From: Qipengyuania mesophila
Lineage (GTDB): Bacteria > Pseudomonadota > Alphaproteobacteria > Sphingomonadales > Sphingomonadaceae
Reading direction: 5' to 3'
Assembly: GCF_019711655.1 (NCBI RefSeq)
Contig: NZ_JAIGNU010000004.1
Span: 186,001-250,000 of the forward strand
DNA length: 64,000 nt
Shown here: positions 10,939-12,662 of the stretch, piece by piece
How the letters are laid out: each line of letters opens with the position of its first letter
Position numbering within the stretch: the stretch's first letter is position 1
Notes under the pieces: model-generated
The model's input: only the letters and a program-made list of their open reading frames with translations
Told to the model about the DNA's origin: nothing
The model's database searches: none
Made by a program: the position numbers and the translations under genes

Positions 10939-11757
10939 CTATTTGGCGATTTCGCGGCGGTTGGCAAGGCTCGGCACCTGCGCGCGCACCTCTGCGATCC
11001 GCGCCAGATCGATGTCGCAGAAGCCGAGGCCAGGCTTCTCGCCGCCCATGTCGAGCAGAACGTCGCCCCAGGGATCGACGACAAGGCTGTGGCCATAGGT
11101 GCGGCGCCCGTCCTCATGCTCGCCGACCTGTGCCGCAGCGACCACGAAAGCGCTCGCCTCGATTGCACGGGCACGCTGGAGAACATGCCAATGGGCCGTC
11201 CCAGTCGGGACGGTGAAAGCGGCGGGGATGGCAATGACGTCGCAGCCCTGACGGCCAAGCGCGTCGAACAGCGCCGGAAAGCGGATGTCGTAGCAGATCG
11301 TCAGCCCGAGCGTGCCGACCGGTGTTCCGGGCACGGTGACGAGCTGAGAACCGGGCTGATAGGCGTTGGATTCGCGCCAGCTCTCGCCGCTGTCGAGGTC
11401 GACATCGAACATATGGATCTTGTCGTATCTGGCCATGATCGCGCCTGCGGGATCGATCACGAAGGCGCGGTTGGCCCAGCGCCCGGCGCCGGTGTCGAGC
11501 GCGAGCGACCCCAGCGAGACCCATATGCCATGCTCTCGCGCGGATTCGCGGACCTTCGCGAGCACCGGCGAATCCTCTTCGGGAATGATCGACGAAGCGG
11601 CGCGCTTGCGGTCGCGATCGAGCATCCCCGACATCTCGGGCGTGAAGAGCATCGTCGCGCCGCCCTGCGCTGCCTGTGCGACCGCCTCGGCCAGCACGCG
11701 CGCATTGTCCGCGGGATCGATCCCCGCGGTCATCTGGAGGACGGCAATACGCGGCAT
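10939..11757 (-). CDS. Carbon-nitrogen hydrolase (nitrilase superfamily), Nit2/YafV-like
   Basis: A 272-residue amidase of the nitrilase superfamily. The catalytic triad is visible as E in LFTPEMSG, K in YDKIHMFDVD and C in TICYDIRFP. Close homologues act as omega-amidases or deaminated-glutathione amidases; the partner glutaredoxin gene makes a glutathione-repair role attractive but unproven. The ATG at 11757 overlaps the grxC TGA by one base. The in-frame sequence upstream to 11982 is excluded because it lies inside grxC in another frame. Confidence 0.92.
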   Translation of the reverse strand: MPRIAVLQMTAGIDPADNARVLAEAVAQAAQGGATMLFTPEMSGMLDRDRKRAASSIIPEEDSPVLAKVRESAREHGIWVSLGSLALDTGAGRWANRAFVIDPAGAIMARYDKIHMFDVDLDSGESWRESNAYQPGSQLVTVPGTPVGTLGLTICYDIRFPALFDALGRQGCDVIAIPAAFTVPTGTAHWHVLQRARAIEASAFVVAAAQVGEHEDGRRTYGHSLVVDPWGDVLLDMGGEKPGLGFCDIDLARIAEVRAQVPSLANRREIAK

Positions 11758-12020
11758 CAGCCGCCGAGCAGCGCGTCGAGCCTGCCCTCGCGTTCGAGCG
11801 CGGCGAGATCGTCGGACCCGCCGACATGCGTTTCGCCGATGAAAATCTGCGGTACCGTCATCGCATTGGGCGCGCGCTGGAGCATCTCCTCGCGTTTCGG
11901 TCCGCCCAGCGTGATGTCGAATTCGGTGTAGTCGACCCCCTTCTGGTCGAGCAGGCGCTTGGCGCGGAAGCAGTATCCGCAACCGAACTTCGTGTAGATG
12001 TCGACCTGGGGCTGGCTCAT
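11757..12020 (-). CDS. grxC: Glutaredoxin 3
   Basis: An 87-residue glutaredoxin. The active site is CGYC (KFGCGYCFRAKRLL), a variant of the usual CPYC. TVPQIFIGETHVGGSDDL gives the cis-Pro and glutathione-binding GG motifs. It reduces protein disulfides and glutathione mixed disulfides in the cytoplasm. ATG at 12020 is chosen because AGAGGAA lies just upstream and homology starts there. First gene of the grxC-nitrilase-DUF1178 operon; its upstream region faces the divergent hsp20 promoter. Confidence 0.95.
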   Translation of the reverse strand: MSQPQVDIYTKFGCGYCFRAKRLLDQKGVDYTEFDITLGGPKREEMLQRAPNAMTVPQIFIGETHVGGSDDLAALEREGRLDALLGG

Positions 12021-12067: not shown

Positions 12068-12095
12068 CTTGAAAGCCCAAACGGTGCGCCTATCT
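12068..12095 (+). promoter_or_regulatory. Sigma-32 (RpoH) type promoter of hsp20
   Basis: An exact heat-shock -35 element CTTGAAA (12068-12074) is separated by 14 bases from CCTATCT (12089-12095), one mismatch from the -10 core CCCATNT. The predicted transcript start, about 12102, falls at the first base of the hairpins of the RNA thermometer. Confidence 0.75.
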
Positions 12096-12102
12096 CGAAG
12101 GT

Positions 12103-12185
12103 GTCGCCACGATGATCGTGGCGGCGACGGGGTGCCGAATGCGGGCCCCGCCCTGATAGAATCGCTCACAAGAGGATTTGTTTCG
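12103..12185 (+). promoter_or_regulatory. ROSE-like RNA thermometer in the hsp20 5' UTR
   Basis: Three successive hairpins fill the leader. Hairpin 1 pairs 12103-12112 with 12116-12128 around a 3-base loop, with a GGC bulge. Hairpin 2 pairs 12128-12132 with 12146-12150. Hairpin 3 pairs AATCGCTC (12160-12167) with GAGGATT (12172-12178) across an ACAA loop, so the ribosome site AGAGGA is sequestered. The anti-ribosome strand contains UCGCU, the U(U/C)GCU motif diagnostic of ROSE elements, and its G (12164) is the bulged base. Melting on heat should free the site for translation of hsp20. Confidence 0.8.
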
Positions 12186-12662
12186 ATGAACCGTATGGAC
12201 CTTACCCCCTTCCGTCGCTCCACCGTCGGCTTCGACCGTGTGTTCGACCTGATGGAACGGCAGGCGCGCGGCGCCGGCGGCGACAATTACCCCCCCTTCA
12301 ACATCGAGCGCCGCGGCGATGACGACTATCGCATCACGCTGGCCGTGGCCGGCTTCCGCAAGAGCGACCTCGACATCGTCGCGCAGCAGAACCTGCTCGT
12401 GGTCACCGGCCGCAAGCGCGACGAGGTCGCCGAAGGTGAAATGCTGCATGTCGGCATTGCCAATCGCGGCTTCGAGCGCCGGTTCGAACTGGCCGACTAC
12501 GTCCGGGTCGCCAATGCCGACCTCGCCGATGGCCTCCTGGTGATCGACCTGGTGCGCGAAGTGCCCGAGGCGATGAAGCCCAAGAAGATCGCCATCGGCG
12601 GCCAGCAGCCGCTCGAAGTGGTCAAGGGCGACGAGGACGACGGCGACAGCAAGGCCGCCTGA
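12186..12662 (+). CDS. Small heat-shock protein, Hsp20/IbpA family
   Basis: A 158-residue alpha-crystallin-domain holdase. The N-terminus has DLTPFRRSTVGFDRVFDLME, typical of IbpA-like proteins. The crystallin core runs from YPPFNIERRGDDDYRITLAV to NADLADGLLVIDLVREVPE, with GFRKSDLDIV and VVTGRK inside. An IxI-type tail is replaced by KIAIGGQQPLEV. It binds unfolding proteins during heat stress for later refolding by DnaK. Control is two-layered: a sigma-32-like promoter and the ROSE-like leader. The ATG lies 9 bases after GAGGA; a terminator hairpin follows at 12698. Confidence 0.95.
   Translation: MNRMDLTPFRRSTVGFDRVFDLMERQARGAGGDNYPPFNIERRGDDDYRITLAVAGFRKSDLDIVAQQNLLVVTGRKRDEVAEGEMLHVGIANRGFERRFELADYVRVANADLADGLLVIDLVREVPEAMKPKKIAIGGQQPLEVVKGDEDDGDSKAA

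Follow-up and report, generated by a model that had tools for sequence, protein, structure and literature searches.

A probable ROSE-type RNA thermometer behind an RpoH-type promoter in the hsp20 leader of Qipengyuania mesophila

The hsp20 locus and its promoter

The stretch of the Qipengyuania mesophila genome analysed here (64,000 nt, hereafter the window) carries hsp20, a gene for an IbpA-like small heat-shock protein, preceded by a promoter and a structured leader (Table 1). The best NCBIfam match of the protein was the IbpA model NF008013, with 147 bits, which is below the cut-off of that model. Its closest orthologs, from Erythrobacter sp. AP23 and Qipengyuania species, share 89-93% protein identity with it. 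For comparison, a set of 80 orthologous hsp20 genes was collected together with their leaders. In nearly all of these leaders the same order was found: the promoter, the hairpin or hairpins, hairpin II, a CAAATTGCTC...GAGGATTTG core or a near variant of it, and the ATG.

Table 1. Coordinates of the hsp20 element and its surroundings in the window
Feature	Position	Strand	Basis
Glutaredoxin gene, divergent neighbour, outside the element	11757..12020	-	PF00462
-35 element CTTGAAA, RpoH (sigma-32) type	12068..12074	+	read directly; kept in nearly all 81 leaders
-10 element CCTATCT	12089..12095	+	read directly; type kept across leaders
Inferred transcript start	12102	+	spacing rule, 7 nt past the -10
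Hairpin I	12102..12126	+	RNAfold; no 5' bulged G in the window's copy
Hairpin II, CGGGGU-G-CCG-AAUG-CGG-GCCCCG, invariant bulged G12134	12128..12150	+	RNAfold, alignment
Hairpin III, putative thermosensor, bulged G12164	~12154..12184, core 12159..12179	+	RNAfold, alignment, ROSE_3 match
U(U/C)GCU motif, UCGCU here, UUGCU in most relatives	12162..12166	+	sequence, relatives
Masked Shine-Dalgarno AGAGGA	12171..12176	+	sequence; alignment (GAG invariant, GAGG almost)
hsp20, IbpA-like small heat-shock protein, 158 aa	12186..12662	+	PF00011, E 1e-16

The sigma-32 promoter with an exact CTTGAAA that a preliminary description of this DNA had pointed out is indeed present. Positions 12068-12095 read CTTGAAA-N14-CCTATCT, so that the CTTGAA and CYTATNT elements of RpoH promoters stand at a fixed spacing, which among the 67 orthologous leaders with a clear -10 was 14 in 59 cases and 15 in 8. 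A strict RpoH-type pattern (CTTGAA-N15-17-YYTATNT) matched only twice in the whole genome (3.13 Mb), and the hsp20 promoter was one of these matches; the same pattern reversed, used as a control, gave 0 matches in the same 3.13 Mb. A quick look at the second match (G000:C1:490266) found no ORF beside it. The genome encodes RpoH (363 bits, where the cut-off is 323), and its dnaK gene has a like promoter with the same type of -10, CTTGTGCCAAGAGAAACCACACCTATAT. The conserved promoter, the presence of rpoH and the similar dnaK promoter together give good support to the view that hsp20 is under RpoH control. By the spacing rule, transcription would start near 12102 and produce a 5' UTR of ~84 nt.

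Leader structure and ROSE family membership

Folding of 12102-12200 with RNAfold gave three hairpins and a minimum free energy of -40.6 kcal/mol, compared with a mean of -32.0 for shuffled sequences (z -2.58; equal stability in 3 of 200 shuffles). In hairpin III, AAUC-G12164-CUC pairs with GAG-GAUU (12172-12178), with AAUCGCUC masking GAGGA and G12164 left bulged. The fold, together with the alignment described below, bears out the earlier claim of three hairpins, the last of which hides AGAGGA behind a UCGCU strand with the bulged G12164.

Conservation of the structure was assessed on a MAFFT alignment of 52 orthologous leaders including that of the window (A1), scored on the structure of the window. 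In this alignment, 96.8% of the cells were paired and double-sided changes occurred at 8 of 18 pairs, with a covariation of 0.277 against 0.158 in shuffled alignments and at most 0.141 when the structure was slid along the sequence. Nearly all of the covariation came from hairpin II, where 95.2% of the cells were paired, compensatory changes were found at 7 of 9 pairs and the number of double-changed cells was 64 compared with 18.3 after shuffling. The bulge of this hairpin, G12134, was a G in 52/52 leaders. Hairpin III was paired in 98.3% of the cells, but its pairs were mostly invariant, as was the G12164 column in the 52 leaders, and covariation gave it little support. Such invariance is expected when ribosome binding and masking both restrict the two strands, and it is conservation and not covariation that supports this hairpin. 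For hairpin I, an alignment over a wider set (A2) was unreliable as the lengths differ; nine close relatives were used instead, and showed double changes at 5 of 11 pairs. Hairpin I is missing from 13 of the 81 leaders (Aurantiacibacter, some Croceibacterium and related MAGs), in which the predicted UTR has 60-62 nt and the transcript would begin at hairpin II. This absence indicates that hairpin I is evolutionarily dispensable. A further peculiarity was seen in the clade of the window and also in L054, where UCGCU serves as the anti-Shine-Dalgarno motif and the sensor hairpin has lost the outer C-G pair present in UUGCU relatives (12157-12180). This combination looks like a balance of stability inside the putative thermometer.

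The assignment to the ROSE family made in the preliminary description was agreed with in part by the covariance models of Rfam (release 15). ROSE_3 (RF02523) matched over its full length at 12126-12191 with 39.9 bits (E 9.6e-7), but this score is just under the gathering score of 43 bits, and ROSE (RF00435) gave 17.7 bits, under its gathering score of 45. Scanning the whole window at gathering level returned no ROSE family, the sole report being a tRNA. Matches to sR44 and to the lysine riboswitch in the leader stretch were far under threshold and were taken as chance. The element thus narrowly misses the curated thresholds, and the case for its membership is made by its features and not by a cut-off. 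The leader stands directly before a small heat-shock gene (PF00011 at 12186), its 3'-proximal hairpin pairs the Shine-Dalgarno sequence with a U(U/C)GCU motif (UCGCU against GAGGA), G12164 is bulged opposite that site, and its number of hairpins falls within the two to four of ROSE elements, with a conserved structure.

The known ROSE types share these features to different degrees. With ROSE_3 the leader has in common the two-hairpin core, a bulged G in both hairpins, the UCGCU anti-Shine-Dalgarno strand and the position before hsp20, whereas hairpin I is an extra 5' hairpin and most relatives have UUGCU. The rhizobial ROSE (RF00435; Bradyrhizobium ROSE1) is alike in its UUGCUC/GAGGA thermosensor with a bulged G, its 5' hairpin, also with a bulged G, and its sHsp gene, but its middle hairpin is absent here. 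ROSE_2, the E. coli ibpA leader (RF01832), also combines a sigma-32 promoter, a Shine-Dalgarno sequence masked by CUCGCUGA and an upstream hairpin with a bulged G; in contrast, its stems and sequence are different and its upstream bulge is U-G-U, that of the window being Y-G-C. The short ROSE-like elements of Pseudomonas ibpA (61-62 nt, two hairpins) parallel the 60-62 nt Aurantiacibacter-type forms and likewise join sigma-32 and a thermometer, although the leader of the window has three hairpins (PMC3669281). ROSE-G shares the anti-Shine-Dalgarno strand with a bulged G, but it has CUGCU and a second bulged G in the Shine-Dalgarno strand, where the window has U(U/C)GCU and a Shine-Dalgarno strand that lacks a bulge of its own (PMC12857270).

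The distribution of the element was mapped with a covariance model (R1) built from A1. On its own genome, R1 scored the hsp20 leader with 71.9 bits (E 1.5e-14), and the next-best match, with 22.8 bits, was the leader of a second hsp20. As the training alignment includes the window, the strongest independent support comes from the Rfam match and from conservation. Every one of the 23 congeneric genomes had an R1 match, as did 124 of 298 genomes in the order and 32 of 385 in the class. RF02523 at E<=0.01 recovered 10 of the 298 order genomes and missed most congeners, and mapping by Rfam alone was dropped; in the order R1 yields about twelve times as many genomes. At the order level, all 30 inspected loci have an hsp20 gene that starts where the match stops. 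The same was seen in 23 of 26 loci from outside the order; of the three exceptions, one lies at the edge of a contig and two seem to be chance matches. Because the training set of R1 came from the same family of leaders, the order-level hits are partly a re-finding, which does not apply to those outside the order. R1 recovers such leaders class-wide, and covariation shows a ROSE-type leader to be standard equipment of hsp20 in the Erythrobacteraceae.

ROSE thermometers have previously been described in rhizobia, Caulobacter and gamma-proteobacteria. For the Sphingomonadales, no ROSE report was found in the literature searched, and an earlier prediction in a sphingomonad may exist, for example in a 2005 survey of alpha- and gamma-proteobacteria. 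The element is new as a member of a kind already known. Its occurrence in a sphingomonad, put forward in the preliminary description, holds, but the element is general in the genus, and the same genome contains a second ROSE leader at Rfam threshold. The latter, of the rhizobial type, precedes another hsp20 (L176:1501-1602; G000:C2:154593-154694) and scored 55.1 bits with RF00435. A third hsp20 lies downstream and a second groES ~2.2 kb upstream, and the locus looks like a heat-resistance cluster.

Temperature response and competing explanations

The most probable interpretation, at about 0.92 on the sequence evidence, is that hsp20 is transcribed from an RpoH promoter and that its leader acts as a ROSE-type RNA thermometer. 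In the proposed mechanism, this promoter would give rise to an hsp20 mRNA with an 84-nt leader. At growth temperature, hairpin III would hold the Shine-Dalgarno stretch GAGGAUU paired to AAUCGCUC, with the bulged G left unpaired, and heat would melt this imperfect helix and permit ribosome binding; hairpins I and II would act as stable scaffolds. Both layers of the heat control proposed earlier, promoter and thermometer, are backed by features of the sequence.

The computed opening of the Shine-Dalgarno sequence increased from 5.8e-5 at 25 C to 2.2e-3 at 42 C in a nearest-neighbour calculation that leaves non-canonical pairs outside the model. In-silico removal of G12164 lowered the opening by three to four orders of magnitude. 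Values for ten genes of the window, taken as a crude comparison, spanned the same range, and the change in accessibility computed for the known E. coli ibpA element was modest too. For these reasons, computed accessibility was rejected as a thermometer criterion, and the melting calculation neither supports nor refutes a thermometer. The expectation of one comes instead from published genetics of the same motif. In the published ROSE mechanism, too, a U(U/C)GCU motif with a bulged G masks the Shine-Dalgarno sequence (PMC3669281, PMC11342760), and when the bulged G was deleted or paired, heat induction was abolished or lowered (PMC11342760, PMC12857270, PMC3669281).

That the melting calculation does not single out the hsp20 leader would also agree with an ordinary stable 5' structure, which might affect mRNA stability or damp translation in general while heat control takes place at the promoter only; an RpoH-type promoter could by itself account for heat induction. 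This alternative is nevertheless improbable. A stable damping structure would have no need of an invariant imperfect helix, and the exact ROSE signature of motif, bulged G and Shine-Dalgarno pairing is kept before hsp20 across the order and the class. A further alternative, chance hairpins in a GC-rich spacer, could appeal to the single-sequence folds, whose z values are only -2.58 and -1.66. It has practically no credibility left in view of the Rfam E value of 9.6e-7, the 64 versus 18.3 compensatory cells in hairpin II and the presence of the element in all 23 congeners; conservation and covariation already refute it.

A different kind of proposal extends the promoter and thermometer explanation without replacing it. 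Hsp20 free of clients may bind its own leader and repress translation as a third layer of control, with the bulged-G hairpins I and II as docking sites. This is a tentative idea, which we regard as possible but rather unlikely. It would fit the large excess of a bulged-G motif in the upstream hairpins (105 copies against 2.45), the invariant bulged G of hairpin II, which recurs in almost every one of 29 distant leaders and in the upstream hairpins of three Rfam models, and the retention of IbpA residues in Hsp20. Against it, the retained residues may instead serve the chaperone fold, and the motif is missing from the window's own hairpin I.

A repeated bulged-G motif and heat-shock control at other loci

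The G12134 bulge of hairpin II, absent from the preliminary description, belongs to a motif shared with the sensor hairpin: a pyrimidine-purine pair, the bulged G, and C-G and Y-R pairs (UG-CC/GG-G in hairpin II, CG-CU/AG-G in the sensor). The bulged G has remained fixed, although compensatory changes have accumulated in the stem beneath. Hairpin I also carries the motif in longer relatives, as L039 shows (GCAUCGC-G-CC-GCGA-GG-GCGAUGC). In the part of the leader that precedes the sensor hairpin, the Y-G-C motif was counted 105 times in 81 leaders compared with 2.45 in dinucleotide shuffles, a count that is inflated by the relatedness of the leaders, whose stems differ though. At least one copy was present in 77/81 leaders and two or more in 28/81. 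Among 29 distant alphaproteobacterial leaders, the first upstream 5' bulge was a G in 26 and a bulged G came second in 2 more. In RF00435, RF01832 and RF02523, too, a G is bulged at the corresponding position of the upstream hairpin. In the literature examined, no statement on this repetition was found, and the function of the 5' hairpins was described by Krajewski et al. as 'not fully understood' (PMC3669281).

A link to the protein is offered by E. coli IbpA, which binds its own 5' UTR and represses its own translation, in a manner that depends on Arg93, on positively charged residues 97 and 98 and on an aromatic side chain at position 34; R93 was also noted in alpha-proteobacterial IbpAs (PMC10474464). 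Hsp20 of the window has these self-repressor residues (Arg93, Arg97, a basic 98 and an aromatic 34), and together with its 81 relatives, in IbpA numbering, R93, R97 and R/K98 were each found in 82/82 and Y34 in 81/82. Because the leader-binding residues of IbpA are kept, the bulged-G hairpins are candidate docking sites for Hsp20, and the kept residues suggest self-repression via these hairpins. More generally, ROSE leaders might be arrays in which a single hairpin module recurs, marked by a bulged G next to a pyrimidine-purine pair (Y-G-C-Y / R-G-R) and by roughly three base pairs in its apical stem. The final copy would mask the Shine-Dalgarno sequence and sense heat, and the upstream copies would dock a protein, most likely Hsp20. 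The odds stand against this speculative reading, which, if true, would add autoregulation to sigma-32 and thermometer control. The repeated motif in the upstream hairpins is possibly a new part and worth following, and, combined with the RNA-binding arginine that the sHsp conserves, it makes the role of these hairpins directly testable.

ROSE-like leaders were also seen before other genes. At L092:1490-1640 and L097:1490-1640, a ROSE_3 match, over threshold in L092 (43.9 bits), precedes clpB and not hsp20. The predicted fold has three bulged-G hairpins, of which the third masks GGGAG before the clpB ATG, and the bulged G of this third hairpin is the G of an upstream AUG that belongs to a short overlapping ORF. 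It would be unusual, if true, for a disaggregase gene to have a ROSE-like thermometer. At L098:1501-1571, a ROSE-like leader (UUGCUCC-AC-GGAGGA) precedes a 62-aa ORF of unknown function and not hsp20. The two groES genes differ in their upstream regions. The one at L148:1100-1530 (G000:C1:1238718) has a CIRCE-like inverted repeat, TGGCACTC...GAGTGCCA, and the one at C2 lacks such a repeat and has an RpoH-like CTTGAAGCCGTTTTCAGCAAAACTAGAT instead, which looks like a split between HrcA- and RpoH-type control.
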